Source: Oscillospiraceae bacterium
GTDB taxonomy: Bacteria; Bacillota_A; Clostridia; Oscillospirales; Oscillospiraceae
Reading direction: 5' to 3'
Length of the DNA: 64,000 bases
Assembly (NCBI GenBank): GCA_017470325.1
Contig: JAFUES010000004.1
Span: 12,441 to 76,440, forward strand
The notes beneath the pieces were generated by a model that searched no databases, had not been told where the DNA came from, and was given only the letters and a program-made list of their open reading frames with translations. A program made the position numbers and the translations under genes. Shown here piece after piece: positions 16,391 to 48,217 of the stretch. Positions within the stretch are counted from its first letter, which is position 1. Every line of letters begins with the position of its first letter.

Positions 16391-17272
16391 TCAGGGGACG
16401 CGCTTGGAGCAGAGGTAGAAGGCGGTGAGCAGGCCGGGGCCCGTGTGGGCGCCGATGACCACGCCCAGACTGCTGATTTGGATCTCGCCCAGCTCCGGGT
16501 GGGCGGCGCGGACCTGCTCGGCTACCCACTGGGCGTCGGCCAGGCAGTCGGCGTGGAGGATCAGCATGGTCCGGCCGGTGGCGTCCACCTGGGCCAGATC
16601 GCTGAGGATCCCGTCCCGGATGGCGGCCATGGCGGCCTTGCGGCCCCTGGCCTTTTTCACCACGTCCAGGGTGCCCACATCGGGCACGTACAAAACGGGC
16701 TTGATGTTCAGCAGCGAGCCCACCAGGGCGGAGGCGTTGGATACACGCCCGCCGCGCTTGAGGTAGTTCAGATCGTCCACGGTGAAGCGGTGGGCAATCT
16801 TCAGTTTGTTCTCCTCGCCCCAGGCCACGACCTGGTCGAAGTCCTCGCCCGCCTCCTTGCGCTTGACCATCTCCATCACCAGCAGGCCCAGGCCGCCGGA
16901 GATGCAGCGGGTGTCCATCACATAGAAGCGCAGGTCTGGGTACTCCGCCTTGACGCTCTCCGCGGCGCGGGCGGCGTTTTCAAAGGACACGGACATCTTC
17001 TCGGACATGTCCAAAAAGATTACGTCTTTCCCCTGGTCCAGCAGGCTCTTGAAGAATTCATAATAGACGAATTCATTGATCATGGAAGTTTTCAGATCGT
17101 CCCCGGCGCGCATGCCGGCGTAGATGGCGGCGCGGTTTTCCTCCCGGCAGTCGTCCTCCCTCAGCTCGCCGTTGACGGTGAAGCTGTAGGAGATGAAGGG
17201 GATGCCGTGCTCGTCCAGATAGGTGCGGGGCAGATCGCAGGTGGATGAGGTCGCAAGAATATAGTCAGACAT
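16391..17272 (-). CDS. DegV family fatty-acid-binding protein (copy 1)
   Basis: A 293-residue DegV protein. Members bind a fatty acid between two domains and, in Firmicutes, act as FakB, presenting the acid to the kinase FakA. Signatures are ATSSTCDLP at the start, FTVDDLNYLKRGGRVSNASA in the middle and GAHTGPGLLTAFYL at the end. The ATG at 17272 is chosen because ACAGGAGG precedes it; the earlier in-frame start has no site. Two more DegV genes occur in this window, which fits the habit of keeping several FakB with different acyl preferences. Confidence 0.92.
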   Translation of the reverse strand: MSDYILATSSTCDLPRTYLDEHGIPFISYSFTVNGELREDDCREENRAAIYAGMRAGDDLKTSMINEFVYYEFFKSLLDQGKDVIFLDMSEKMSVSFENAARAAESVKAEYPDLRFYVMDTRCISGGLGLLVMEMVKRKEAGEDFDQVVAWGEENKLKIAHRFTVDDLNYLKRGGRVSNASALVGSLLNIKPVLYVPDVGTLDVVKKARGRKAAMAAIRDGILSDLAQVDATGRTMLILHADCLADAQWVAEQVRAAHPELGEIQISSLGVVIGAHTGPGLLTAFYLCSKRVP

Positions 17273-17303
17273 AAGTGCCTCCTGTATGTGTTGTTTCCAA
17301 GAC

Positions 17304-17332
17304 ATCATATCATATTTGATATCGGTTTCCAA
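17304..17332 (-). promoter_or_regulatory. sigma-A promoter of the DegV 1 gene
   Basis: On the minus strand TTGGAA (17332-17327) and TATGAT (17309-17304) are 17 bases apart, about 32 bases before the start codon. Confidence 0.6.
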
Positions 17333-18956: not shown

Positions 18957-19949
18957 TCAGGCCTTCTGCCTGCGCAGCGTCCGGTACATCCAATAGCCGG
19001 CCAGGGCCATCAACGCGGCGCTGAGACTCATCAGGCTGTAGCAGAGCAGATACCAGTTGCCGTGCCGCTGGATCAGATATTCCAGATAGCCGGTGGCAGC
19101 CAGGCCCAGCAGCCACAGCAACCACAGCAGGAGGTGGATCGGCCGCAGACCATTGGCCCGGATGCTGCGGCGGCTGTAGTAGAGCAGCACTGCCAGAATG
19201 GCCACAGCGCTGACGATCTGGGTCAGGCTCACGAAGCCGTTGGAGCGCAGGAAGCTGGAATCGTAGCGGGTGCTGTCCAGCACCAGCTCGATGGCGCTGT
19301 AAAACAGCAGGAACAGCAGGGCCACACTGCCCGCTGCCTTGCCCTCTTTCATGGAGGCGCGCCGGCGCTTGAGGTAAAAGCGGGTCAGCAGCAGGGCCAA
19401 GAGCATCAGCAGCAGAAATTCCCAGAAGAAGGTGGCAAAGCGGTACTCCACCGCGCCGGTGGCTGTGGTGACCGGGGCGGCCAAGGGCAGGTGCTGGAAG
19501 CGGCCCCGGGTGATGAGCAGCTTTCCCCGGTCGGTGTTGCCGAACAGAGCGCTGAGTCGGATCAGGGCGATGCCCAGAGCGGCGCCTGGGGCCAGCGCGT
19601 CCAGCAGACGGGCGCTGCTTTCGGCAAAGCCCAGCGCATGCACCAGCAGCGCCGCCAGCAGCACGCCCAGCAGTACGCCGGGCAGACAGAAGCCGCCGGT
19701 ACTGTAATGGGTCATGGCGGAGAAGAAGCCGCTGTACTGCTCCGTGTGGCAGTACCAGTGCAGGGCCCGACTCAGCAGCACGGAGAGCCACAGGGCGATG
19801 GGGAAGAAGACCCACAGGGTACTCCGCTCCCCACCGTCGCTGCGGTAGAGGGCGAGGCTGAGCGCAAACCAGGCGGCCACGCCCAGGGTCAGCACCAGGG
19901 AACTCCAGTAGAGGACGCCGCCGCCGGCGGCAATGGCCACGGGATTCAT
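18957..19949 (-). CDS. Lgt-like polytopic membrane protein (cassette A, gene 3)
   Basis: A 330-residue protein with about eight membrane helices. Its pattern resembles prolipoprotein diacylglyceryl transferase: LDALAPGAALGIALIRLSAL corresponds to the Lgt region before the signature GRxGNF, and IELVLDSTRYDS to the C-terminal conserved arginine block. The signature itself is altered: the glycine before the key Arg is Ile, and GNF is replaced by SALFGN. A housekeeping Lgt role is therefore doubtful. A paralogue lies at 45361-46404 (shared FCLPGV, RFATF, STRYDS). Its start overlaps the glycosidase stop by 4 bases. Function unknown; a lipid-linked or lipoprotein-related transfer is possible. Confidence 0.72.
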   Translation of the reverse strand: MNPVAIAAGGGVLYWSSLVLTLGVAAWFALSLALYRSDGGERSTLWVFFPIALWLSVLLSRALHWYCHTEQYSGFFSAMTHYSTGGFCLPGVLLGVLLAALLVHALGFAESSARLLDALAPGAALGIALIRLSALFGNTDRGKLLITRGRFQHLPLAAPVTTATGAVEYRFATFFWEFLLLMLLALLLTRFYLKRRRASMKEGKAAGSVALLFLLFYSAIELVLDSTRYDSSFLRSNGFVSLTQIVSAVAILAVLLYYSRRSIRANGLRPIHLLLWLLWLLGLAATGYLEYLIQRHGNWYLLCYSLMSLSAALMALAGYWMYRTLRRQKA

Positions 19950-21367
19950 GGCGTCACCTCCTCACGGTGCACCGCAGAGGCGAAATAAAGGATATCGCTC
20001 ATGCTGCGCTCGTTGTCCCAGTCCACCCGGTTGTAGGCGTCGCCCCGGAAGACGATGATGGAGGTCTGGCCTCCGTCCAGGGCGTAGGCCTTCTGGCAGC
20101 CCTTGCGGAACATGTACTCGCCCGATTGGGCGATGGTGCAGGTGTGCTGGTAATCGCCCTCGTAGTTGACGGTCATCAGCAGATAGTGCAGCGTGTCCAG
20201 CTGCCCGATGGAGGAGCGGGAATAGTAGTGGTCCACCTCGCCGATGGGATAGGAGGGGTTCACCTCTTTCAGCTCGCCGCCGTCCACCAGCACCGGACCG
20301 AAGGCCAGGCTGAACAGCACGTTGTTGTCCTGGATAAACTGCTTGGTCTCCGCCTCACTTTTCAGCTGCCCGGCGTAGGCGAACAGCATGTCGCCGCCGG
20401 CGGTGAAGAAGCAGCTGTCCACAGAGTTCAGATTGCAGCGGTAGAGCTGCCGCTGGTATACGGTGACCCCAAGATTGCGAAAGGCGTAGAAGTCCCCGTT
20501 GATGGCCACGACAGCGTTGGCGTCCCTGGCCATCTGTGTGGCATAGAGTTGGACGCTGGAGCCGTAGCTGTCCCCGGCCAGCTTCCGCCGGATCTGAGAG
20601 CCGTCGGCCATCTTGACCTCCGCGCAGCTGCAGCACTTGCCGTCGATGATCTCTTTCCAACAGAGTACGAACAGGCTGTCGTCCAGATAGTATTTGAATT
20701 CCGAGCCGGGCATAAACTGAGCGTTCGGGTCCCAGGCCAGAGACTGCCCGTCCAGCAGCTCCGCCGCCAGGGCGATCACCTGCTCCACCTGGGCCGTGTC
20801 CGTCGTGCTGCCGTAGCGGGTCGGGTCCGGCTTCGGTGCGGCGGTGGCGTTTTCCGCGATGGCGTAGAGCTTGGGCAGGGCCGCCGTGTCGCCCAGGGCG
20901 GCGCTGACGGCGTTGTTGGCGTACAGATCCAACCGGGCGGGCAGATCCTCCCGACCGGCGACAGCGCCGCTCCCCTCGTCCGGGCGCACATGCAGGCACA
21001 GCCAGCACAGGCTCAAAACCGAGAGCAGGGCGAAAAGCACGGGAATCAAACGGCTGGGCCGGCGAGGACCGGCAGGGGCCTTTTCCGCCCTTGGCGCTTT
21101 CTCTTCCTCCACCTTGGCGGGGCGGGAGGGCTTTTTGCGTTTGGCCGGAGGCGCCAGCACGGTGGGCTCCTCCACCGCCGGGGTTTTGACGGCGCTGTGC
21201 CGCCGGGCGGGATGGGGCTGCGCCGCGGCCGAAGGCACGGAGGCCGGAGCGGCCGGGGGCACGCTCTCCGGCGCCGCCTCCGGTGTGGAGCTGCCGGCAG
21301 CGGACGTGTCGGAAAACTCCGCCAATATGGAATCCAGGTCAAAATCAAAATCCGAAGGACTGCTCAC
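19946..21367 (-). CDS. membrane-anchored phosphodiester glycosidase domain protein (cassette A, gene 2)
   Basis: About 473 residues. The cytoplasmic N-terminus holds a motif DFDFDLDSILAEFSD (residues 6-20), then a Pro/Ala/Lys-rich stretch. One membrane helix (about 110-132) follows, then an extracytoplasmic domain of the NAGPA/phosphodiester glycosidase family. Diagnostic blocks are VVAINGDFYAF (about residue 255), FGPVLVDGGE and AYALDGGQTS (about 440). The family removes sugar phosphodiesters, for example GlcNAc-1-phosphodiesters. The start is GTG 21367, 8 bases after AAGGAGG; the GTG at 21376 lies inside that site. The paralogue (43727-45364) aligns to the same start. Confidence 0.8.
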   Translation of the reverse strand: MSSPSDFDFDLDSILAEFSDTSAAGSSTPEAAPESVPPAAPASVPSAAAQPHPARRHSAVKTPAVEEPTVLAPPAKRKKPSRPAKVEEEKAPRAEKAPAGPRRPSRLIPVLFALLSVLSLCWLCLHVRPDEGSGAVAGREDLPARLDLYANNAVSAALGDTAALPKLYAIAENATAAPKPDPTRYGSTTDTAQVEQVIALAAELLDGQSLAWDPNAQFMPGSEFKYYLDDSLFVLCWKEIIDGKCCSCAEVKMADGSQIRRKLAGDSYGSSVQLYATQMARDANAVVAINGDFYAFRNLGVTVYQRQLYRCNLNSVDSCFFTAGGDMLFAYAGQLKSEAETKQFIQDNNVLFSLAFGPVLVDGGELKEVNPSYPIGEVDHYYSRSSIGQLDTLHYLLMTVNYEGDYQHTCTIAQSGEYMFRKGCQKAYALDGGQTSIIVFRGDAYNRVDWDNERSMSDILYFASAVHREEVTP

Positions 21368-21405
21368 CGCCGTCACCTCCTTCTATCAGGATTCAATAAT
21401 CAAAG

Positions 21406-23229
21406 TCAATAGGACAGGCCGCCGGAGAGCACCTTCAGCAGGTTCTGATCCGGCACCACGCGCCAGCTGCCGTCCACGCTGCGCAGGGTCAACTGTACGC
21501 CGGAGGTGGCGTAGTAGTCCTCCGCATGGCTGAGCACCGCCTCCAGGGCCCGGGCGTAGGCCTCCTGGGCAAAGGAGGCGAGATAATTGTTGTCCGCGTC
21601 GTACACCTGATCATGCTCCCGGTCCCGGGACAGATCCACGATCACATTTTCCAGTTCAGCCCGGGCGTCCGCTTCCAGCGTGGCCACGTCCAGATAGCGA
21701 AACTGCATCTGCTGCCGGGCGTCCATCCCGTCCACGGTGCTGTCCCCGATGAGGGTATAGCCGTAGCTCTGCCGCAGCGCGGCGTACAGCAGACGGCCGG
21801 AGGCTGTCTCCGGCTCCTTTTCCAGACCCAGACTGCTGTAGCCGTCCATGCGGGCATAGACCGCGTCATAGTCTCCGGCCTGCAGCGCGTCAAAGAAGGC
21901 GCTGACCGCTTCCTGGGGATCACCTGTGGGCTTGGCCACCAGCGTGCCCCTGGAAACTGCCAGAGTGCACAGCAGCAGAGCCAGGGAGCACAGCAGTGCC
22001 GCGGCCACGGCCCAGGGCAGGCGCAGCCGATAGCGCCGCCGCCAACGGACCAGGAGCGCCAGTGCGACCAGGACCGCCACCACCACGGCTACCGCCGCGA
22101 TCAGCGGGGCAAAGCCGATGGTGCGCTGCTCGGTACTCGCCGTTTCCTTTTCCACAGGCGCCTCGGTCTCCCGGGGGGTGAACAGGGCGGCCAGTCCCGT
22201 CTGCTGGGCCTCCGCCTCCGCGCGGGCGGCCTCTGCTTCCGCTTCGGCCCGAGCCTGCTCTTCGGCCAGACGCTGGGCCTCCGCCGCCTCCTCCGCCAAG
22301 CGCTGGGCGGTGTGGTACTGGGCGTAGTCGCACATGAGAGTGGCGTACTCGGTGATCACCGGATAGGCCTTGGCCACATTGTCGGTGAAGATCACCAGCA
22401 GGATGGGGTCGTCCGTAAAGGCGATGCCGCAGTCGTTGATGTTCTGATGATACTCCGTCACCAGAAAGCCGTATTTGTGGGCGATGTCGAAGCGCTTCTC
22501 CCGTAGCTTGAAATAGCGGTTGGGCTCCGCCTTCTGCATGGTCTCGACGATGGTGGGGAAGCGGTCGGGATTGTCATACAGCAGCTTCAGGCAGTAGATC
22601 ATCTGCCGGGCGGTGAAAAAGTTGTTCTCGTAATATTTCTGCTCCACGGTCTCCGGGTCCTCGCCCATGTAGGGGGCGATGATCTCCCGGTAGCGGTGGT
22701 AGCCCTGGCCGTTGCTGAGGATGGTCCACAGGGTCCGGGCCAGCTCGTTATCGGAGTGGATGATGGTGGCGTCCCGCAGGTCGCTGAGCTTATAGGTGCC
22801 GTATGTAGTGTCCCATTCCAGCTCCCCGCTGGACACCTTTTCCGCAAAGGCCATGTTCAGCGGTACCTTGTACATGCTGCCGCTGACCATATACTGGTCG
22901 GGGTGGAGATAATGCTCCTCCCCGGTGACGGTGTTGTAGTACCCCAGCGTGACGATGTTGGGGTTGTCCGGGTCCAGGTCGTATTTCTCCAGAAAGGTCC
23001 TGACGACCTCATCCCAGGTCTTATCCTTATACAGTGCGTCCATCTCCGGGTACACCGAGGCCTCGGCATCCGCCGCCTCCTCCGTCTCGGGGACTTTCGG
23101 CCCCGCCGGTTCCGCCGCCTCGGGCGCTTCCGGCCCTGCCGGTTCCTCCGCGGCCAGGGCCACGCCGGGCAGAGACAGCAGCAGGCAGAGCACCGCCAGC
23201 ACGCACAGCAATTGTTTGATCCGTTTCAT
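21406..23229 (-). CDS. serine hydrolase (beta-lactamase fold) fused to an NTF2-like module (cassette A, gene 1)
   Basis: A 607-residue protein. Order: signal peptide (1-26), acidic Pro-rich linker, penicillin-recognising serine hydrolase domain (about 65-300), Ala/Glu-rich coiled coil (308-342), two membrane helices (371-394, 405-425) joined by an Arg-rich loop, and an extracytoplasmic C-terminal domain (430-607). Catalytic motifs are SMYK (S118-K121), SDN (159-161) and KYG (252-254) in place of KTG, most like class A beta-lactamases. The C-terminal part from helix 2 onward is homologous to the stand-alone protein at 43082-43711 (shared KPTG/KPSG, FFDAL, SLGLE/TLGLE, VYDA). It may act on cell-wall peptides; antibiotic hydrolysis is not shown. 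Confidence 0.8.
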   Translation of the reverse strand: MKRIKQLLCVLAVLCLLLSLPGVALAAEEPAGPEAPEAAEPAGPKVPETEEAADAEASVYPEMDALYKDKTWDEVVRTFLEKYDLDPDNPNIVTLGYYNTVTGEEHYLHPDQYMVSGSMYKVPLNMAFAEKVSSGELEWDTTYGTYKLSDLRDATIIHSDNELARTLWTILSNGQGYHRYREIIAPYMGEDPETVEQKYYENNFFTARQMIYCLKLLYDNPDRFPTIVETMQKAEPNRYFKLREKRFDIAHKYGFLVTEYHQNINDCGIAFTDDPILLVIFTDNVAKAYPVITEYATLMCDYAQYHTAQRLAEEAAEAQRLAEEQARAEAEAEAARAEAEAQQTGLAALFTPRETEAPVEKETASTEQRTIGFAPLIAAVAVVVAVLVALALLVRWRRRYRLRLPWAVAAALLCSLALLLCTLAVSRGTLVAKPTGDPQEAVSAFFDALQAGDYDAVYARMDGYSSLGLEKEPETASGRLLYAALRQSYGYTLIGDSTVDGMDARQQMQFRYLDVATLEADARAELENVIVDLSRDREHDQVYDADNNYLASFAQEAYARALEAVLSHAEDYYATSGVQLTLRSVDGSWRVVPDQNLLKVLSGGLSY

Positions 23230-25290: not shown

Positions 25291-25320
25291 TTGCTATTTT
25301 CGGGGGCTTTTGGGTATCAT
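25291..25320 (+). promoter_or_regulatory. possible promoter of the DegV 2 gene
   Basis: TTGCTA (25291-25296) and TATCAT (25315-25320) are 18 bases apart, 40 bases before the start codon. Confidence 0.45.
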
Positions 25321-25360
25321 GTCTCTGCAAACAGCAAAAACGACAGGAGGCATTACCGGT

Positions 25361-26404
25361 ATGAGTTTTGTCGTCTTGACCGACACCTCGGGCAACCTAC
25401 CCAGCAGACGTGTGGCCGAAAGCGGCCTGGAGGTCATCCCCTTTACCTATACCATTGACGGGCAGGACTACACCTGCATCGATACGGAGAGCTTCGACGG
25501 AGACGCTTTCTATGATCGGATCCGCGGCGGCGTCACTGTGACCACCACGCAGATCCGCCCCAACGACTATGCGGAATTCTTCGAGCCCTATCTAAAAGCG
25601 GGCAAGGACCTGATTTTTGTATGTATGTCCTCGGGCATCAGCGGCTCCTGCAACTCCGGCCACATCGCGGCTGACATGCTGCGGGAGACTTACCCGGAGC
25701 GCTGCATTGAGATCATCGACACCCGAGGCGCATCCCTGGGTGAGGGCATCATCGCCCTGCAGGCGGCCCAGCTGCGGGATCGCGGCATGGAGACCCGGGA
25801 GGCAGCGACCCAGCTGCGCGGCAATGTGGAGCGCATGTTCAACGTCTTCACAGTGGACGACCTGATGCACCTGCGTCGGGGCGGACGGCTGTCCAACCTG
25901 TCCGCCATCGTGGGCACGGTGCTGCAGATCAAGCCCCTGCTCAAGGGCAACGAGGAGGGCAAGATCGTGGCCTTCGCCAAGCTGCGCGGCCGGAAGAAAT
26001 CCATCCAGGCCCTGGCCCAGCTCTATGACAAGCTGGCAGTGCAGCCCCAGTATCAGACCGTGGGCATCGCCCAGGCGGGCTGCCGGGAGGACGCGGAATA
26101 TCTGGCGCAGCTGCTGCGCCGCAACCGGCCGCCCCGGGAGATCCTGACCGTGGAGTACGAGCCGGTCACCGGTTCCCATGTGGGGCCGGGCGCCCTGGCG
26201 CTGTTTTTCATGTCCGCGGAGGGCGTGCGCAGCTTCGGCAACGAGGGCGTCACCGGCGGCATGAAGGAGGCCATGGCCGTGGGCGAGGCCGCTCTGAAGG
26301 GCAGTCTGAAGCTTGGTGAGAACGTAGTGAAAACCACGCTCAAGAAAGGCAGCGACGCCGCCGCCACGCTCAGCGAAAAGCTCCGGGAGCGCCGCGATAA
26401 GTAA
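25361..26404 (+). CDS. DegV family fatty-acid-binding protein (copy 2) with C-terminal extension
   Basis: A 347-residue protein. The first 285 or so residues are a normal DegV/FakB domain: VVLTDTSGNLP, FTVDDLMHLRRGGRLSNLSA and GSHVGPGALALFF. The last 60 residues are unusual for the family, alternating Gly/Ala with Lys/Glu (GMKEAMAVGEAALKGS, TTLKKGSDAAATLSEK), likely an amphipathic helix that could touch the membrane or another protein. The ATG at 25361 follows AGGAGG by 10 bases; an earlier in-frame ATG lacks a site. It is convergent with the YyaL-like gene. Confidence 0.9.
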   Translation: MSFVVLTDTSGNLPSRRVAESGLEVIPFTYTIDGQDYTCIDTESFDGDAFYDRIRGGVTVTTTQIRPNDYAEFFEPYLKAGKDLIFVCMSSGISGSCNSGHIAADMLRETYPERCIEIIDTRGASLGEGIIALQAAQLRDRGMETREAATQLRGNVERMFNVFTVDDLMHLRRGGRLSNLSAIVGTVLQIKPLLKGNEEGKIVAFAKLRGRKKSIQALAQLYDKLAVQPQYQTVGIAQAGCREDAEYLAQLLRRNRPPREILTVEYEPVTGSHVGPGALALFFMSAEGVRSFGNEGVTGGMKEAMAVGEAALKGSLKLGENVVKTTLKKGSDAAATLSEKLRERRDK

Positions 26405-36561: not shown

Positions 36562-39249
36562 TTATAGGCCGATCCCGGCGGCCAGGGCCAGGATCTCCTC
36601 CATGCTGTGGTAATTCAGAGAACCGAGGATAAAGCCGCAGTCGTTGGGATCATAGGCGTAATAGTCGCAGACGAGGAACTGATCGGAGTTATGATCAAAG
36701 GCAACAGCCTTGTTGATGTACTGGCTGTACGCCGCGCTGTCCTCGAAAAGATCCAGCAGATAGCCGCCAAACAGGGAGCCATAAAGGCAGACGCTCGCTT
36801 CGGGGAAGTACAGGTACGCATTTTCGCTGTAGGCACGGATCGTATCCGGCAGCTCGGTGGTTGAAAGGAGCGTACCCTCCAGGTCATAGAGCAGGACGCG
36901 TCTTTGCAGTCCCACGAGGATCCGGCTCCCATCGGGGGTGAAGCTCATGGCCTGGATCTCCTCGCCTACCTGAACCGGGATCGTGACGTCTGGCAGGATC
37001 GCAAAGGAGGTCTTTCCCTCACCGTACGTCAGTTGGTGCCCGCCGGACTCCAGGATCCGGTCGTCAGCGGGGAGACTGTCCATATATGCCCGGACACTCT
37101 GCCCTGTGAGCTTTGTTTCCATGTAGCTGGGATCGGATTTTCCCGTGGTATACTGGACGATTTGGCTCGCCTCGGTTTGAATATAAAAGAAGGACCCGCT
37201 GTGATCTGCCCGTATGATATCCGGGGGGAAGTTCTTCACCGTGACGATCTCCGCCGTATCCAGTTCCTTGGGGATCATTACCCGATGTCCGTTCTCCAGG
37301 ATCAGGTCCAGCGCCTGCTCGCGCTGCTCCAGGACCACGATGGCCGCGTCGAAGAGCATGTCCATCCTGCAGACGCCGCTGTCCGCCTCCAGGACCCAGA
37401 GGCTGTTTCCCACGGCTGCGGCCACGCAGCGCAGGCCGGAGATCTCCGTTTGCAGGATGAGCGGCGCCTTCAGGCCCCGCAGATCCGAAGCGCCTCCCAT
37501 GACAGTGTCCCCGTCGGACGAAGCGGAAAGCGTTTCGGCAGGCTCCGCCGCGCTTGCAGAGTCATAGGACCACACCACGTTCCCGCTTTTGGGATCGCAG
37601 CTCCAGATCCGGAAGCTTTTCTGCCCGACCATGTCCAGGAAATATTCGGGCGTCACGGATCTGCGGATGTTGACGGGCCCGTTATAGTCGAAGACCAGGA
37701 CCCGGGCATCTGCATCGAAGCAGAGCTGTTCTGTCGTGGTGGAATTCCAGGGATCCACCGGCCCCAGGACCAGCTCCGATACCGTGTCCTCTTTCAGGTC
37801 GAACACGGTCAGTGTCCGCATCATGCGTCCGTTGTTTCCGGTGAAAGCAAGGAGATCCCCGTCCGCGGAGACGGCACGGGCCCTTCGGAAGTTCCGAAAT
37901 GCGTCACAGGGGAAGACATGGGTACGCAGCGCGCTGCCGTCGGAGAGGTCCAGCTCGTCGATCCTGACAGCTGTAGGCGAGACGCAGCAGACGCTGTAGA
38001 GCCGTTCATGATCCGCGGACAGCAATGCGGTCCCCGAAGCGCGGGCGGTAGGGTCGAAGGCCGCCTCCCACAGGAGTTCCCCGGTCTCATACGCATAACA
38101 CAGGATGGCCGTGTCTGTCCAGAGGATCAGGCGGCCCCGGGCCTCCAGAAGGCGGTGCCCGGCGTCGAAAGGATCCACGGAGCGGATCACGTCGCCGCTT
38201 TCATAAGAGCAGAGCAGGGAGCAGTCCGCCGTGTCCCAAACAGACAGCTTTTTGTCCGAGAGCACGAAGAGCCGGCTGCCGTCGCTGTTTAAGAAGAAGT
38301 CCTGGATCTCCGCTTCGCTTTCGTCCGCCAGCATGCCGGTGGGCACGGCGATCGTAGAGGCCTCTTCCGGCCGGGTGTAGAGATTCAGGCAGGAGAGCAG
38401 CAGGCGTTTCAAAGCGGCGTGCTGCGCCGGGTCCTCATCCGAGAGCTGTAAGGAGAGCAGCGCCAGATTGACAGCCTTTGAGTAGTCTCTCTCCCCGAAG
38501 GCCTCCTGCGCCTGCTCTGCCAGAAGCTGGGCCTGACTGGAGATTTTTTCGCTCTGTTCCCGGACGATGATCTGCGCCTGCTCCGCGATCTGCCTTTGGT
38601 GTTGGGCGATCTGGTTGGCCTTTACGGCCGCATAGGCACCAAAGGCGGCGAGGACGGCAAAGACCAAAAGCCCGGCGCCCAACATACGTGTGGTCCTTGC
38701 CCGCTTCTCCCGCTGGTACAGGGTGTCGAATGAGCAGCCCAGCAGACAGGCTAGCAGGCGCAGGCTCTCTTTACGGTATTTCCGGAGGCTGATGCGATGG
38801 TTCTTCCCGACGATGTTGGCGGCCAGCGGTTCTATGTCTGAGACCGCATTGCCGCTTTCGTCGTATTCGTGCAGCATCAGAGGAGAAAACGATACCTCCC
38901 CGCTGCCGTCGGCCAACACGGCCAACAGATGGTCCCGGTCATGGGTCTGCAGGAAATAGCGGATCTCCTGCTCACACCACTTGGACTGGGGCAGATCCGG
39001 CGTGCAGATCACGATCAGAAACTGGCTGCGGTCCAGGGCCCGGAGGATGCTGTCCGACAGGGAGGAGGACAGCGGCAGCTCGTCCTCATCCCGGAAAACA
39101 TAGCCCAGTCTGTCGCTGTCCGGCGTCTTCCGGAGCTCCTTTGGGATCCGGTAGGACTCGATGCGCTTCTCGATCATACGGGCCGCTTTTGCATCCAGAG
39201 GCTTGTGGCGGTAACTGATAAAGGCGATATAGGAACGTTCTTCCGACAT
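36562..39249 (-). CDS. TIR-domain transmembrane protein with C-terminal beta-propeller
   Basis: An 895-residue protein. The N-terminal TIR domain (about 5-150) begins YIAFISYRHKPLDAKAARMI and has FLIVICTPDLPQSKWCEQEI, where E95 matches the catalytic glutamate position of NAD-cleaving TIR domains. One membrane helix follows (about 189-209), then a Gln/Glu-rich coiled coil (210-250), a short helical repeat (RDYSKAVNLALLSLQL), and about 600 residues of WD40/quinoprotein-like beta strands. TIR would face the cytoplasm and the propeller the outside, unless the helix is not inserted. The start is ATG 39249; the upstream in-frame part is not family-like. It may be a defence or signalling receptor. 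Confidence 0.8.
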   Translation of the reverse strand: MSEERSYIAFISYRHKPLDAKAARMIEKRIESYRIPKELRKTPDSDRLGYVFRDEDELPLSSSLSDSILRALDRSQFLIVICTPDLPQSKWCEQEIRYFLQTHDRDHLLAVLADGSGEVSFSPLMLHEYDESGNAVSDIEPLAANIVGKNHRISLRKYRKESLRLLACLLGCSFDTLYQREKRARTTRMLGAGLLVFAVLAAFGAYAAVKANQIAQHQRQIAEQAQIIVREQSEKISSQAQLLAEQAQEAFGERDYSKAVNLALLSLQLSDEDPAQHAALKRLLLSCLNLYTRPEEASTIAVPTGMLADESEAEIQDFFLNSDGSRLFVLSDKKLSVWDTADCSLLCSYESGDVIRSVDPFDAGHRLLEARGRLILWTDTAILCYAYETGELLWEAAFDPTARASGTALLSADHERLYSVCCVSPTAVRIDELDLSDGSALRTHVFPCDAFRNFRRARAVSADGDLLAFTGNNGRMMRTLTVFDLKEDTVSELVLGPVDPWNSTTTEQLCFDADARVLVFDYNGPVNIRRSVTPEYFLDMVGQKSFRIWSCDPKSGNVVWSYDSASAAEPAETLSASSDGDTVMGGASDLRGLKAPLILQTEISGLRCVAAAVGNSLWVLEADSGVCRMDMLFDAAIVVLEQREQALDLILENGHRVMIPKELDTAEIVTVKNFPPDIIRADHSGSFFYIQTEASQIVQYTTGKSDPSYMETKLTGQSVRAYMDSLPADDRILESGGHQLTYGEGKTSFAILPDVTIPVQVGEEIQAMSFTPDGSRILVGLQRRVLLYDLEGTLLSTTELPDTIRAYSENAYLYFPEASVCLYGSLFGGYLLDLFEDSAAYSQYINKAVAFDHNSDQFLVCDYYAYDPNDCGFILGSLNYHSMEEILALAAGIGL

Positions 39250-39284
39250 GGGCTTGTTTTCACCTCGGTGTGCGCTTTTTCCCG

Positions 39285-39313
39285 ATTTTACTATGGAACG
39301 GTCCGCTTGGCAA
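39285..39313 (-). promoter_or_regulatory. sigma-A promoter of the TIR gene
   Basis: On the minus strand TTGCCA (39313-39308) and TAAAAT (39290-39285) are 17 bases apart. Confidence 0.65.
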
Positions 39314-39344
39314 GTCTCCCTTGCCCGTCCGGAAGGGAAAGCGC

Positions 39345-39373
39345 TTGAAAAAGAAATGCGGGTATGGTAAAAT
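39345..39373 (+). promoter_or_regulatory. sigma-A promoter of the membrane XRE gene
   Basis: TTGAAA (39345-39350) and TAAAAT (39368-39373) are 17 bases apart. The -35 boxes of the two divergent promoters are only about 30 bases apart. A CCATATG-ACCATATG tandem repeat (39402-39416) lies in the leader. Confidence 0.65.
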
Positions 39374-39428
39374 AAAACAACTACGCTTGACGTGAACAAA
39401 ACCATATGACCATATGTTTGGATAGAAT

Positions 39429-40081: not shown

Positions 40082-40122
40082 AAAACAGGATGGGTAGAGC
40101 GTGAAAGCCCATCCTGTTTTTT
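40082..40122 (+). terminator. terminator of the membrane XRE gene
   Basis: AAAACAGGATGGG (40082-40094) pairs with CCCATCCTGTTTT (40108-40120), followed by TTG. Confidence 0.8.
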
Positions 40123-40214
40123 GTGTAGAGCGCCGGAGCGCAAGCGTAGCTTGTGATGCGGGAGCGGCGGAGGTATACTGGTTGCATAAAACCGAACAGG
40201 AAAGGAACATCACC

Positions 40215-41099
40215 ATGAGTTACATCCTCAGCTGCTGCTCCACCGCCGATCTGAGCAAGGAGCATTTTGAAAGCCGCAACATCAACTATATCTGCTTCCA
40301 CTACGCCCTGGACGGAGTAGAGTACCCGGACGATCTGGGCCAGAGCATCCCCTTTGACGAGTTCTACGCCCGCATGTCCGCCGGGGCCGACACCCGCACC
40401 GCCCAGGTGAACGTGTCCGAATATGTGGACAGCTTTACCCCCTATCTGGAGGCGGGGCAGGATATCATCCATGTGTGCCTGTCCTCCGGCATCTCCGGCA
40501 CCATCAACTCCGCCCGCAACGCGGCGCTGATTTTGAAGGAGCGCTATCCCGAGCGGACCATCTATATCATCGATTCCCTGGGCGCCTCCTCCGGCTACGG
40601 CCTGATCATGGACACCGCCGCCACCAAGCGGGATGAGGGCATGGGCGTGGACGAGCTGGCTCAGTGGATCGAGGACAACAAGCTGAAGCTGCACCACTGG
40701 TTCTTCTCCTCGGACCTGACCTTCTTTGTCAAGGGCGGTCGCATCTCCAAGACGGCGGCGGTCTTCGGCGGATTGCTGGAGATCTGCCCGCTGATGAACA
40801 TGGACAATCTGGGCCGTTTGATTCCTCGCTTCAAGATCCGTACCAAGAAGCGGGTCATCAAGGAGATCGTCAAGAAGATGGAGGAGTTTGCCCAGGACGG
40901 CCTGGACTATTCCGGCAAGTGCTACATCAGCATGTCTGCCTGCTATGACGACGCCCGCGCCGTGGCCGATCTGGTGGAGGAGCGCTTCCCCAAGCTCAAC
41001 GGCAAGGTGGTCATCAACAACATCGGTACCACCATCGGCTCCCACACGGGACCGGGTACCGTGGCCCTGTTCTTCTGGGGCAGCGAGCGCGTGGATTGA
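40215..41099 (+). CDS. DegV family fatty-acid-binding protein (copy 3)
   Basis: A 294-residue DegV/FakB-type protein: SYILSCCSTADLSKEHF at the start, VCLSSGISGTINSARNA, FFSSDLTFFVKGGRISKTAA and IGSHTGPGTVALFFWGSE at the end. It differs clearly from the two other DegV copies (SCCSTADL in place of the more usual S-T-D-L start). The ATG at 40215 follows GGAAAGGAA; the longer frame upstream runs through the terminator of the previous gene. It is convergent with a GntR regulator. Confidence 0.92.
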   Translation: MSYILSCCSTADLSKEHFESRNINYICFHYALDGVEYPDDLGQSIPFDEFYARMSAGADTRTAQVNVSEYVDSFTPYLEAGQDIIHVCLSSGISGTINSARNAALILKERYPERTIYIIDSLGASSGYGLIMDTAATKRDEGMGVDELAQWIEDNKLKLHHWFFSSDLTFFVKGGRISKTAAVFGGLLEICPLMNMDNLGRLIPRFKIRTKKRVIKEIVKKMEEFAQDGLDYSGKCYISMSACYDDARAVADLVEERFPKLNGKVVINNIGTTIGSHTGPGTVALFFWGSERVD

Positions 41100-43081: not shown

Positions 43082-43711
43082 ATGGAAGGAAGAGTCAAGA
43101 AATTTTGGATCGCCATCACGGTCCTTCTGATCGCGGCGGTCCTGCTGCTGTGCATTTTTGCAGCCTGGCGCGGCTCGCTGTACATCAAGCCTTCGGGCAA
43201 TCCCCAGTATACGGTGTCCAATTTCTTTGATGCTCTGCTGGCGGAAAAGTATCAGCAGGCCTACGACTGCCTGAGCGACTACACCACTCTGGGGCTGGAA
43301 AACGAGCCGGAGAGCGACGAAGCCCGGCTGGTCTATCAGGCGCTGAAGGACAGCTATTCCTATGAGCTTGTGGGCCGCTGCGAGGAAAACCAGATGGAAG
43401 CGGTACAGCGGGTCAGCTTCACCTATCTGAACGTCAAGCGGGTGGAGGCGGAGATCACCAAGCGGGTGAACACCGTACTGGCGCTGCTGGTGGCGGAAAA
43501 GCCCCGCAACGAGGTCTATGACGCCAACGACCAGTATCTGCCGGAGCTGACGGACGAGGTGTATCTCCGGGCTTTGGAGCAGGTGCTGGAATCCCCGAGC
43601 TTTTATTACAGCACCGTGGAGTTCGATGTGGAGTTGTCCTACATGGACGGCCAGTGGCTGATGAAGACCAATCCGACCCTGTTCAACGCCCTCATGGGCG
43701 GCGAGAGCTGA
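43082..43711 (+). CDS. membrane-anchored NTF2-like domain protein (cassette B, gene 1)
   Basis: A 209-residue protein with an N-terminal membrane helix (about residues 7-28) and an extracytoplasmic domain that starts KPSGNPQYTVSNFFDALL. The domain pattern (early helix pair, YDCLSDYTTLGLENEP, then paired strands) suggests an NTF2-like or DUF4878-type fold; that fold call is tentative. It is homologous to the C-terminal 200 residues of the serine hydrolase fusion in cassette A. The gene ends 15 bases before the glycosidase gene. A binding or scaffolding role for the partner proteins is plausible. Confidence 0.75.
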   Translation: MEGRVKKFWIAITVLLIAAVLLLCIFAAWRGSLYIKPSGNPQYTVSNFFDALLAEKYQQAYDCLSDYTTLGLENEPESDEARLVYQALKDSYSYELVGRCEENQMEAVQRVSFTYLNVKRVEAEITKRVNTVLALLVAEKPRNEVYDANDQYLPELTDEVYLRALEQVLESPSFYYSTVEFDVELSYMDGQWLMKTNPTLFNALMGGES

Positions 43712-43726
43712 TAGGGGGTGAAGGGT

Positions 43727-45364
43727 TTGAGCGATAAGGAATTCGATTTCGAGCTGGAAGACATCATCGCGGAGTTCAACGACTACACCATTCCCGAGCC
43801 CCGCAAACGCCGCCGCCGGACGCCTGTCCCCGCGGCGGAGGTCGCCGCGCCTGTAACCGCAGAGACGGCGCCTGCCCCGGCGGAGCCGGTGGAAGAGCCG
43901 GTCCCAGGTCCGGAGGAGCCAGTATACGAGGAGCTCCCCGTGCCGGAGGCGGCCCCGGAGCCCGCGGCTGAGGCGCCCCCGGTTTTTGAGATCGTACATA
44001 CCCCGAAGCACGCGGCGCCGGAAGCGGAAAAAGAGCCGGAGCCGGAACCGGAAGAGCCCCCCGAGGAAAAGCCAAAAAAGAAAAAGGGAAAGAAGAAGAA
44101 CAAAGACCTGGACGAGGACGAGGACGCCGAGCCGGTCAAGCCCACGGCGGCGGGGAAGGCCTCTGCCGGAAAGCCCAAAAAGGACAGCGTGGGCAAGCGC
44201 ATCGGCCTGGGCTTGCTGAGCCTGATCTTCGCGGCGATCTCCCTGGTGTGCCTGGCCTGGTGTATGCAGAACATCCATCCGGAGACCACCACCGTGGAGG
44301 TCAGCCGGGGCACCGCTACCGCCAACCTGGTCTCCCGTCTGAACACCAGCGTGTACAACTCCAAGGCCTCCGCCCTGGGTGAGATCGTGTATATCCGTAA
44401 GCAGTACACCATCCCGGAGGAGGATCTGGTGGCGCCCAAGCCCAATCCCGCCTGCTACGGCACCCTGAGCATCGACCGGGCGGAGGAAGTGCTGGATGTG
44501 ATCCAGAAGGCCAGGGATTCCGGCCTGCTGGACGGACAGGATGTGATCTTTGATCCCAACGTCAGCTTCTATTACGATTCCACCATCCAGTATTACTGTG
44601 ACGATACCATCCTGGTCATCTGCTGGAAGGAGCTGATCGACGGGTATACCTGCAGCTGCTGCGAGGTAAAGATCGCCGACGCCTCCCAGTTCAGGCGCAA
44701 GATCACCGACGATACCTTTGGCTCCGCCATGCAGCTGTTCGCCACCGAGCTTTCCAACAGTGTCAACGCCGTGGTGGCCATGAACGCGGACTACTACGGC
44801 TTCCGCGATTTCGGCATCATGGCCTATAACCGGCACCTGTACCGCATGGACGAGAGCGTGTACACCGGTATGTATAAGAAGTATAACTGCGTGGACACCT
44901 GCTTTGTCACGGCAGAGGGCGAGTTCTTGTATGTGCACCGGCTGGATGAATATAGCTGGGAGGAAATGGAGCAGTACATCAAGGACAACAATGTGCTCTT
45001 CTCCATCTCCTTCGGACCTGTCCTGATCGAGAACGGCGAGCTGCAGGTCTGCGACTGGTACCCGGCGGGCGAGATCGACAAGGGTTACTCCCGTGCCGGC
45101 ATCGGTATCTACGACGATCTGCATTACTACTACATGTCCCTGAACCACTCACCCGAGCGGGCGGCCCGCTGGACGGTGAATGAGTTCGGCAAACAGATGT
45201 ACAACAAGGGCCTGCGCAGCGCCTATTGCCTGGACGGCGGCCAGACCAGCGAGATCGTCTTCCAGGGCGAGCCGTACAACTACATCGACTTCGGCGCGGA
45301 GCGCAAGGTCACGGATATCATCTACTTTGCCACGGCCATTCCGGAATCGGAGGTGACGTCATGA
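43727..45364 (+). CDS. membrane-anchored phosphodiester glycosidase domain protein (cassette B, gene 2)
   Basis: About 545 residues. The N-terminus carries the motif EFDFELEDIIAEFND, then a long Pro/Glu/Lys-rich cytoplasmic region (to about 160), one membrane helix (about 163-185), and an extracytoplasmic NAGPA-type phosphodiester glycosidase domain. Blocks are VVAMNADYYGFRDFG, FGPVLIENGE and AYCLDGGQTSEIVF. It is a paralogue of 19946-21367. The TTG at 43727 is preferred as start: it stands at the same distance from the AGGGGGTG site as GTG 21367 does in cassette A. GTG 43718 overlaps that site and is the alternative. Confidence 0.8.
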   Translation: MSDKEFDFELEDIIAEFNDYTIPEPRKRRRRTPVPAAEVAAPVTAETAPAPAEPVEEPVPGPEEPVYEELPVPEAAPEPAAEAPPVFEIVHTPKHAAPEAEKEPEPEPEEPPEEKPKKKKGKKKNKDLDEDEDAEPVKPTAAGKASAGKPKKDSVGKRIGLGLLSLIFAAISLVCLAWCMQNIHPETTTVEVSRGTATANLVSRLNTSVYNSKASALGEIVYIRKQYTIPEEDLVAPKPNPACYGTLSIDRAEEVLDVIQKARDSGLLDGQDVIFDPNVSFYYDSTIQYYCDDTILVICWKELIDGYTCSCCEVKIADASQFRRKITDDTFGSAMQLFATELSNSVNAVVAMNADYYGFRDFGIMAYNRHLYRMDESVYTGMYKKYNCVDTCFVTAEGEFLYVHRLDEYSWEEMEQYIKDNNVLFSISFGPVLIENGELQVCDWYPAGEIDKGYSRAGIGIYDDLHYYYMSLNHSPERAARWTVNEFGKQMYNKGLRSAYCLDGGQTSEIVFQGEPYNYIDFGAERKVTDIIYFATAIPESEVTS

Positions 45365-46404
45365 ATCCCATTGCCATCTATACCGGCGACCTCACCATCT
45401 ACTGGAGCGGCATCATCATCGCCATCGGCATCGCGGTAGCCCTGACCATGACTCTGGCTCTGTATCCCATGAGCGGCCGGAACAACGCGGCGGTGTGGGT
45501 CATGTTCCCCTTCGCGCTGTTCTTCTCCGTGGTCTTCGCCCGGGTGATCTATTGGTACTGCCACATCGAGCAGTACAGCTCCATCCGCCAGGCCCTGCTG
45601 GATTATTCCACCGGCAGCTTCTGCCTGCCCGGCGTGATCCTGGGCACCTGGCTGGGGGCCCTGGTGGCGCGGATGCTGAATCTCACCGACAGCGCCGGGC
45701 GTCTGCTGGACGCGGCCTCCCCGGGCATGGCGCTGTGCATCGGCATCATCCGCCTGAGCGCCCTGTTCAACAACTCCGTGCGCAGCCACATCATCATCAC
45801 CGACAAGGTGTTCCAGCGTCTGCCCACAGCGGTGGCCTTTACCGACTCCGCCGGCAACACCAACTACCGCTTTGCCACCTTCGCCGTGCAGGCTCTGTTG
45901 ATGCTGCTGGTGACCATCCTGCTGATCGTGTTCTACTGCGACCACCGGGACGACCGGCTGCGGGGCGGCAACAAGGGCGGCAATGTGGCCCGGCGCTTCC
46001 TGCTGTACTACGGCGCGGTGGAGATCATCATGGATTCCACCCGGTACGACTCCCACCTGTATCACTTCACCTTTATCAAGCGCCTCAACCCCTACGCCTC
46101 CTTCATCAGCGTGGCCCAGGTTTTCGCGGCGGTGACCATCCTCTGCGTGCTGATCCACTATATGAAGGTCTCGGTGAAGGCCCGGGGCTGGAAGTGGTAT
46201 CACGTGGTGCTGCTGCTGGTGTATCTGGCCTCCCTCATCGGGGTGGGCTACTTTGGCGAATACAAGGTCCAGCGCACCGGCCTCTACGCCCGCTGCTACA
46301 TCATCCAGGGCGTCTCCCTGCTGGTGATGGTCTGGGTGGTGTGCATCCTGTACCGCAGCTGCAAGGCCAAAAAGAAACGCCGTCCGGCTTTCGCGGACGA
46401 CTAG
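45361..46404 (+). CDS. Lgt-like polytopic membrane protein (cassette B, gene 3)
   Basis: A 347-residue protein with about eight membrane helices, paralogous to 18957-19949 over its whole length (MNPIAIY/MNPVAIA start, IYWYCHIEQYSS, STGSFCLPGV, RLLDAASPGM, RFATF, DSTRYDSH). It resembles prolipoprotein diacylglyceryl transferase, but the signature region reads IIRLSALFNNS instead of GRxGNFxN. Arg and a later Asn are kept, the glycines are not. The start overlaps the glycosidase stop by 4 bases. The conserved linkage in both cassettes suggests that it acts on, or together with, the glycosidase. Confidence 0.72.
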   Translation: MNPIAIYTGDLTIYWSGIIIAIGIAVALTMTLALYPMSGRNNAAVWVMFPFALFFSVVFARVIYWYCHIEQYSSIRQALLDYSTGSFCLPGVILGTWLGALVARMLNLTDSAGRLLDAASPGMALCIGIIRLSALFNNSVRSHIIITDKVFQRLPTAVAFTDSAGNTNYRFATFAVQALLMLLVTILLIVFYCDHRDDRLRGGNKGGNVARRFLLYYGAVEIIMDSTRYDSHLYHFTFIKRLNPYASFISVAQVFAAVTILCVLIHYMKVSVKARGWKWYHVVLLLVYLASLIGVGYFGEYKVQRTGLYARCYIIQGVSLLVMVWVVCILYRSCKAKKKRRPAFADD

Positions 46405-46465: not shown

Positions 46466-48217
46466 TTATTCCACGTCCTGCAGGGCCCAGTAGTTTTCCT
46501 CACCCGTGCGGATCTTCACCACCCGGCTCACGTTGTACACAAAGATCTTGCCGTCGCCGATGTGCCCGGTATACAGAGTCTTCTTGGCGGTGTCGATGAC
46601 CTTCTGTACCGGGATCTTGGCCACGATCACCTCCACCTTGATCTTGGGGATCAGCGTCAGGTCCACCGCCGCGCCGCGGTAGCGCTCGGAGGAGCCCCGC
46701 TGGATGCCGCTGCCCATGACCTGGGTCACCGTCATGCCGGTGACGCCCAGCTCGTTGAGGGCCTTTTTCAGCGCGTCGAACATGCTCAGGCGGCAGAGGA
46801 TGCTGACCTTGTAGATGCCGCTGTCGAAGCCAGCGGCCAGGGGCGCCTCCTGCTGCACCGGCACGGCGGCGTTGTGGAGGACGGAGTCGGCCTTGTCATA
46901 GTCGCTCTCGCCCAGGTCGGTGTTCTCGTTGACGTCCATGGTCATGCCGGTGGGGTCGCTGATGGCGAAGCCGGAGTAGGCGGAGGGGAGACCGTGCTCG
47001 TGGATGTCCAGGCCGTCGATCTCCACCTGAGCGCTGACCCGCAGGCCGATGGTCTTGTCGATGAGCTTGAAGGCCACGAACATGACGGCCAGCACGTAGA
47101 CGATCACGCTGGCAAAGCCCAGCAGCTGGATGCCCAGCTGCCGCAGTCCGCCGCCGTAGAATAGGCCAAGGCCCACGCCGTCGTCGCCGGTGGAAAAGAG
47201 CCCCACTGCGATGGTGCCCCAGATGCCGCAGACCATGTGCACCGAGACGGCGCCCACCGGGTCGTCGATCCTGGCCTTGTTATCGAAAAACTCCACGCTC
47301 AGCACCACCAGGAAGCCCGCGATCAGACCGATCCAGAAGGCGCCGAAGGGGGAGACGCAGTCACAGGGGGCGGTGATGGCCACCAGTCCCGCCAGGGCCG
47401 CGTTCAGAGTCATGGACACGTCGGGCTTGCCGTAGCGAAGCCAGGTAAAAATCATGGCGGTCAGGGTGGAGACCGCGGCGGCCAGGTTGGTGGTCATGAA
47501 GGCCAGGCTCGCGCTCTCCGCGGCGGCGCTGTCGGCCATGGCCACGGTGGAGCCGCCGTTGAAGCCGAACCAGCAGAACCAGAGGATGAACACGCCCAGG
47601 GCGCAGGCGGTCAGGTTGTGGCCGGGTATGGCCCGCGCCTTGCCGCTGCTGTCATATTTGCCGATGCGGGGCCCCAGCATCCAGGCGCCCAGACAGGCGA
47701 TGGCGCCGCCCACCATGTGCACGCAGGTGCTGCCCGCGAAATCGTGAAAGCCCAGCTGATATAGCCAGCCGCCGCCCCAGATCCAGTGCCCGCTGATGGG
47801 GTAGACCAGCAGGGAGATGACCGCGGAATACACACAGTAGGCCTTGAAGTTGGTGCGCTCCGCCATGGAGCCGGAGACGATGGTGGCGGAGGTGGCGCAG
47901 AACACCGTCTGGAAGATCACATAGCACCACAGGGGCATGGTCTGGGGCACCACGCTGTTGGCGGCGGTGTAGGCATGGCGGATCATGGGGTCCAGACCGC
48001 CCAGAAAGGCGCCGGTGCCGCCGAACATCAGTCCGAAGCCCACCAGCCAGAAGCAGGGGGTGCCGATGCAGAAGTCCATCAGGTTTTTCATCAGGATGTT
48101 GCCGGTGTTTTTGGCCCGGGTCAGCCCGGCCTCGCAGAGGGAAAAGCCCGCCTGCATGAAGAAGACCAGAGCGGCACAGAGCAGGACCCAGCTTACAGTC
48201 GTGACTTCGTATTCCAT
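46466..48217 (-). CDS. ammonium transporter fused to a P-II regulatory domain
   Basis: A 583-residue protein. Residues 1 to about 405 are a complete Amt channel with 11 helices (FFMQAGFSLCEAGLTRAKN, AGSTCVHMVGGAIACLGAWM, GCIWG-like VHMVCGIWGT). After a linker, the last 115 or so residues form a GlnB/PII domain: YKVSILCRLSMFDALKKALN, MTVTQVMGSGIQRG, PKIKVEVIVAK and HIGDGKIFVYNV. Normally PII is a separate protein that plugs the channel. Fusion puts sensor and channel in one chain, as known in some Clostridia. AAGGAGG precedes the ATG, and a terminator-like leader hairpin precedes that. Confidence 0.92.
   Translation of the reverse strand: MEYEVTTVSWVLLCAALVFFMQAGFSLCEAGLTRAKNTGNILMKNLMDFCIGTPCFWLVGFGLMFGGTGAFLGGLDPMIRHAYTAANSVVPQTMPLWCYVIFQTVFCATSATIVSGSMAERTNFKAYCVYSAVISLLVYPISGHWIWGGGWLYQLGFHDFAGSTCVHMVGGAIACLGAWMLGPRIGKYDSSGKARAIPGHNLTACALGVFILWFCWFGFNGGSTVAMADSAAAESASLAFMTTNLAAAVSTLTAMIFTWLRYGKPDVSMTLNAALAGLVAITAPCDCVSPFGAFWIGLIAGFLVVLSVEFFDNKARIDDPVGAVSVHMVCGIWGTIAVGLFSTGDDGVGLGLFYGGGLRQLGIQLLGFASVIVYVLAVMFVAFKLIDKTIGLRVSAQVEIDGLDIHEHGLPSAYSGFAISDPTGMTMDVNENTDLGESDYDKADSVLHNAAVPVQQEAPLAAGFDSGIYKVSILCRLSMFDALKKALNELGVTGMTVTQVMGSGIQRGSSERYRGAAVDLTLIPKIKVEVIVAKIPVQKVIDTAKKTLYTGHIGDGKIFVYNVSRVVKIRTGEENYWALQDVE

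Follow-up and report, generated by a model that had tools for sequence, protein, structure and literature searches.

The window analysed here, 64,000 nucleotides from a contig of an Oscillospiraceae bacterium, carries two copies of a gene cassette ~20 kb apart. Cassette A (18957-23229, minus strand) consists of a gene for a serine hydrolase fused through two transmembrane (TM) segments to an NTF2-like domain (P0003, 21406-23229; PF13354, 2.2e-15, motifs and TM scan), a gene for a NAGPA-type phosphodiester glycosidase (P0002, 19946-21376; PF09992, 5.1e-15, TM scan and motif), and a gene for an Lgt-like polytopic membrane protein of 330 aa (P0001, 18957-19949; Pfam LGT, 8e-16). The coordinates and frames that the initial annotation gave for these three linked minus-strand genes are correct. 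Cassette B (43082-46404, plus strand) encodes an NTF2-like membrane-anchored protein (P0004, 43082-43711; predicted NTF2 fold), a NAGPA-type phosphodiester glycosidase (P0005, 43718-45364; PF09992, 1.7e-14), and an Lgt-like membrane protein (45361-46404; PF01790, 1.2e-14). The 392-aa frame in the ORF list is over-extended for the latter, and the ATG at 45361 was taken as its start. As had been claimed for the second copy, its modules, their order and the 4-base ATGA overlap at the NAGPA/Lgt-like junction all match cassette A, and the context of the overlap is near-identical, AGGTGACG(C/T)CATGAATCCC. The two copies share ~43% (Lgt-like), 44% (NAGPA) and ~39% (NTF2-like) amino acid identity, the C-terminal part of P0003 being ~40% identical to P0004. 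The NAGPA gene of cassette A probably starts at the GTG at 21367, which follows an AGGAGG and lies 9 nt inside the ORF, and that of cassette B may likewise start 9 nt further in, at the TTG at 43727.

The window also contains three DegV-family genes (16391-17332, minus strand; 25310-26404 and 40101-41099, plus strand). Cassette A has two of them at most ~2 kb away, and the third lies upstream of cassette B at a distance of 2 kb. A 947-aa protein encoded at 36562-39405 (minus strand) combines a TIR domain (TIR_2, ThsB_TIR) with beta-propeller-like repeats and has only a weak PADLOC match, and an ammonium transporter fused to a P-II signalling domain is encoded at 46466-48217 (minus strand).

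P0003 has a signal peptide, a Beta-lactamase2 domain (S118, K121, S159, N161, K252, G254), the two TM segments and the NTF2-like domain. The SxxK, SxN and KxG motifs are well kept among the cassette peptidases, with S, K, S, K and G present in 20/20 and N in 19/20. The NTF2-like part had no Pfam match, and its predicted structure is an NTF2 cone fold that scored best against class B penicillin-binding proteins (PBPs), with other NTF2 folds nearly as high; a Foldseek search with this model returned nothing below 0.001. P0002 comprises a cytoplasmic tail with the motif DFDLDSILAEF, one TM segment (~107-132) and an extracellular NAGPA domain according to the TM scan, and the corresponding tail motif of P0005 is FELEDIIAEF. 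Both glycosidases are well above the PF09992 cut-off of 25 (56.5 and 54.8 bits). Their core is kept: D189, R281 and D328-G329-G330 are invariant in 22/22 aligned sequences and N187 nearly so, and this N-x-D, Arg and DGG core aligns with the solved NAGPA/DUF2233 chains 3OHG and 6PKG. Searching the PDB by sequence only gave no match for P0002 and four matches in all for the two Lgt-like proteins, none of them an Lgt (best E 0.0099), so that profile and fold searches were needed.

The initial annotation would have been refuted if homologues of these proteins were mostly not neighbours in other genomes, and this outcome did not occur: NAGPA adjoins the Lgt-like gene in all 46 distinct loci found outside the window. 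A scan of genome contigs with two peptide patterns yielded 22 Lgt-like loci, each with NAGPA immediately upstream, and when the first matched residue was taken as the start, the junction was a 4-base overlap in 18 of these 22, a 1-base overlap in three and a 2-base gap in one. The NTF2-like gene lies upstream nearly always, the module being present in 44/46 cassettes (absent from L087 and L102), and a serine D,D-peptidase-like domain precedes the pair in over a third of cassettes (17/46; absent from 29/46, including cassette B). For these two counts the window copies were added, and L001 and L006 were left out because of contig ends. Before counting, I dropped L085, L109 and L110 (same contigs as L004, L019 and L022), L105 (the bridge cassette described below) and the weak matches L106, L107 and L111; L104 was retained with its downstream NTF2-NAGPA fusion, although the contig ends within its Lgt-like gene. 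L137, a further cassette with NAGPA and no NTF2 detected, is not among the 46, and some of the 46 are closely related (Lgt-like identity 97% for L013/L014 and 95% for L003/L004). At 34 control lgt loci (16 from carriers of the cassette, 18 from other genomes), no NAGPA, NTF2 or peptidase was found at 1e-3 in flanks of up to 1.5 kb, five loci having one shorter flank. Controls were classed as canonical by an R...E..R motif; in L037 the first match to the pattern fell at another site of the protein, and in L038 GRWGN is replaced by GRIGC.

Outer neighbours vary: antisense ORFs aside, no family beyond the cassette occurs in more than 10 of 46 loci, counting the window as one and leaving out L104. 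A VanY D,D-carboxypeptidase gene directly follows the Lgt-like gene in L008, L011, L012, L015 and L018, and VanY is also found ~4 kb away in L003/L004. VanY was rejected as a constant partner: the five directly downstream cases all have LepA upstream and represent one syntenic lineage.

The cassette was detected chiefly within a single family of gut Clostridia. Searches with an alignment of the Lgt-like family (A3) matched 23/300 genomes of the family of G001 (1e-10) and 6/295 genomes of an order sample (1e-10), three strongly (G001, G321 and G435, which also belong to the family sample) and three weakly, and in a class sample 1/291 genomes (1e-20), which was G001 itself. Some loci, such as L019 (Lachnospiraceae), come from records with other titles, and the restriction to one family is thus not absolute.

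Fusions join the modules in several combinations. Peptidase and NTF2 are fused in 10 cassettes (cassette A of the window, L005, L009, L022, L082, L084, L086, L091, L093 and L108), NTF2 and NAGPA in L019, L095 and L104, and peptidase and NAGPA in L101. The peptidase is fused to leucine-rich repeats (LRR) in L096-L098, and so is the Lgt-like protein in L003 and L004. The LRR module was seen on an Lgt-like protein (L003:8983-11604), on a peptidase (L096:2946-5414) and as a neighbouring gene (L091:13204-14484). The three-part unit of the initial annotation has to be widened by a recurrent fourth module, the serine hydrolase, and an occasional fifth, the LRR.

The proteins also appear to have evolved together. 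Over 43 complete cassettes, pairwise distances correlate at 0.90 for Lgt-like/NAGPA and at 0.84 and 0.84 for the other two pairs, values reached by 0/2000 permutations. With one cassette from each of 16 genomes, plain correlations with the distance of canonical Lgt were 0.64-0.70, and removing this distance left partial correlations of 0.90, 0.76 and 0.81; the agreement is thus not explained by shared species history alone. The dN/dS ratio is 0.10-0.27 in five gene pairs between the window and L001 or L010, its nearest relatives; the Lgt-like gene of cassette B gives 0.26 against L007. Together with the 46 outside loci and the many fusions, this co-evolution beyond species relatedness supports the earlier suggestion that the products belong together.

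The Lgt-like proteins of cassettes A and B match the PF01790 profile and have the Lgt fold, to which an extra C-terminal TM hairpin is added; against the equivalog TIGR00544 they reach 42.4 and 52.9 bits, under its cut-off of 118.9. The position of the catalytic R239 (here E221) is Glu in 43/43 rows of A3, and across 43 cassettes it is Glu in 30, Gln in 10, Thr in 2, Asp in 1 and Arg in none. The essential R143 (R131) is kept in 43/43 rows and 41/43 cassettes. The equivalents of R246 and D129 are also kept, and E243 has become Asp in all 43 rows. At the N146 position 43/43 rows have Ala or Ser, and at the E151 position Ser, Ala or Thr predominate. The counterpart of H103 in the HGGL motif is L89, which is hydrophobic in 43/43 rows, this position being Tyr in six aligned canonical Lgts of carriers. 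In E. coli, Lgt with R239E or R239Q does not complement (PMC4728403). A canonical Lgt is also present in 16/16 carrier genomes, which excludes the Lgt-like protein as the sole Lgt of the cell. Overall, there are strong indications that the Lgt fold has been kept, that the catalytic R239 has been lost, and that the protein is not the lipoprotein lipidation enzyme of its cell. Among the 120 homologues listed, six carry a name from their source, in each case prolipoprotein diacylglyceryl transferase, and this label is probably wrong. A further PF01790 protein (L111:9708-10415, G009:C137), short, divergent and encoded close to LRR genes, lies outside the Lgt-like family.

Two kinds of wider relatives were found. 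The first is a bridge cassette from a genome of the order-level draw (L105, 128-3205) with the layout NAGPA, GT2/GtrA fusion, Lgt-like protein, which is repeated in L122 (4541-7603) and cut by the contig end in L123. Its Lgt-like protein keeps R143, N146, R239, E243, R246 and GRWGN, and its alignment with the cassette family extends into the additional hairpin. A phylum search with this protein (398 genomes, 1e-26) gave 13 further genomes besides that of the bridge itself, and all 11 loci examined from these were canonical by motif. Canonical Lgt, bridge protein and Lgt-like protein form a natural series for how a lipid transferase may be re-tooled. GT2/GtrA proteins built in this way produce or move polyprenyl-phosphate sugars, a hint that a lipid-linked sugar phosphate is the substrate; the clue is weakened by the distance of the bridge cassette and by the R239 that its Lgt-like protein still has. 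The second kind is cassette-type NAGPA with no Lgt-like gene, at 12 judgeable loci (a 13th, L150, ends at a contig edge downstream), seven of which are stand-alone NTF2-NAGPA fusions (L135, L136, L138, L140, L142, L147 and L148). NTF2-NAGPA is thus the wider core, and NAGPA does not always depend on an Lgt-like partner. At several stand-alone loci, NAGPA is immediately preceded by a gene for a class II tRNA synthetase, and this in turn by one of the DAG kinase family; these were set aside as functional partners, as they look like a housekeeping synteny block.

Carriers are rich in NAGPA, with 2-10 matches in each of 16 genomes compared with 0-3 in 16 non-carriers of the family. The teichoic acid polymerase PF04464 was detected in 8/16 carriers and 2/16 others, and LCP ligase in 13/16 and 16/16, counts that are limited by the possible incompleteness of metagenome-assembled genomes (MAGs). 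The six cassette proteins matched 0 PADLOC families at 1e-3, and an anti-phage defence system was rejected on this basis.

In some gut Clostridia, three or four genes for surface proteins, one of them an altered Lgt relative, stay linked, and their products seem to make up a single undescribed envelope machine. The reading I favour, tentatively and at somewhat less than an even chance, is a single membrane-anchored extracytoplasmic complex: in the outer leaflet, the Lgt-like protein would bind a lipid-linked phosphodiester and offer it to the tethered NAGPA domain for cleavage of a sugar-1-phosphodiester bond, and the NTF2-like and D,D-peptidase domains would dock the complex on peptidoglycan. 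The outcome would be the release or trimming of an envelope sugar-phosphate, or its transfer between lipid and wall. Linkage to NAGPA, fusions, distance correlations, dN/dS, the kept motifs, the loss of R239 and the bridge cassette all argue for such a complex. It is weakened by the peptidase missing from 29/46 cassettes, the limitation of VanY to one lineage, and the 3/16 and 8/16 carriers without LCP ligase and teichoic acid polymerase, respectively. The putative role given in the initial annotation, editing or moving a sugar-phosphodiester or a lipid-linked component of the envelope, would be plausible.

Alternatively, the Lgt-like protein may be active as a transferase whose donor or acceptor has changed, moving diacylglyceryl or another lipid to a glycan or other non-cysteine acceptor that NAGPA readies by exposing a phosphate or hydroxyl. 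This is unlikely: the retained R143, R246 and D129 equivalents, the uniform Asp at E243, the new invariant polar residues E290, Q294 and R295 in the added hairpin (residues 270-323; A3), and the bridge protein with its full set of residues favour it, whereas the lost R239, N146 and E151 equivalents and the failure of the R239 mutants in E. coli speak against it. It is likewise doubtful that the Lgt-derived protein with its rebuilt active site would be a new lipid-headgroup or lipid-sugar transferase whose product is passed to a dedicated phosphodiester glycosidase; if true, gut Clostridia would have a new covalent or remodelling step that joins peptidoglycan, sugar-phosphate and membrane lipid. 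The unit could also strip peptidoglycan of wall teichoic acid or of some other polymer linked by a phosphodiester, with NAGPA cutting the GlcNAc-1-phosphate-MurNAc link and the peptidase trimming the freed wall. The substrate of animal NAGPA, GlcNAc-1-P-6-mannose, resembles the teichoic acid linkage. NAGPA frees phosphodiester-linked sugars (PMC12419801), and the peptidase, the PBP-type NTF2 modules and the LCP ligases of most carriers would fit; nevertheless, this proposal is quite improbable, as it gives the Lgt-like partner no explanation and is weakened by the detection of PF04464 in only 8/16 carriers, although MAGs may have gaps. More improbable still is a sensor in which a lipid or sugar of the envelope is bound, but not turned over, by NAGPA and the Lgt-like protein and the tail motif (e.g. 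YDLEDILAEF) signals inside: the tail pattern occurs in 12 ORFs of the scanned set, all 12 NAGPA, and Lgt catalytic residues are lost, but the short-tailed NAGPA of L003, L013, L014, L017, L020 and L022 lack the motif, and the NAGPA core and peptidase motifs are kept. That the repeat is nothing but a local duplication of chance neighbours, as the proximity of the two copies might suggest, is refuted for practical purposes by the constancy of the cassette across 46 outside loci whose outer neighbours change, and by A and B each being closer to relatives in other species than to each other.

In the cassette, an Lgt fold has taken on a changed role and is linked to a phosphodiester glycosidase and to penicillin-binding-protein-like modules. 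Knowing the substrate could bring to light an envelope polymer or a step of lipid modification that is new for bacteria of the rumen and gut. In agreement with the initial annotation, no description of the NTF2/NAGPA/Lgt-paralogue combination was found in one open-access library, which covers few subscription papers. One of the closest known parallels combines NAGPA with Lipocone domains in extracellular multi-enzyme proteins of Bacillota, for which lipidation without Lgt has been proposed (PMC12419801); extracellular NAGPA and the lipidation idea are in common, but those systems use Lipocone domains, with no Lgt paralogue and no NTF2/peptidase cassette seen in the accessible sections. NAGPA fused to calcineurin-like enzymes is mentioned in PMC11488536. 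Compared with the NTF2 domain of the class B PBPs PBP5fm, PBP2a and PBP3, the cassette proteins lack a transpeptidase domain, and their NTF2-like module is encoded on its own or as part of a fusion with Beta-lactamase2 or NAGPA. That domain of the three PBPs is of the MecA_N type. With the NAGPA/DUF2233 proteins (PF09992; 3OHG, 6PKG), the cassette glycosidases share the domain and the N/D, R and DGG motifs, but they have DGGQ instead of DGGG (22 aligned), a TM anchor, often a long acidic cytoplasmic tail, and partner genes. Finally, in contrast to Lgt itself (PF01790, TIGR00544; 5AZB), the Lgt-like protein has Glu or Gln for R239 in 40/43 cassettes and never Arg, an altered N146 and E151, an additional hairpin, NAGPA as its neighbour in all loci found, and a canonical Lgt in the same cell.
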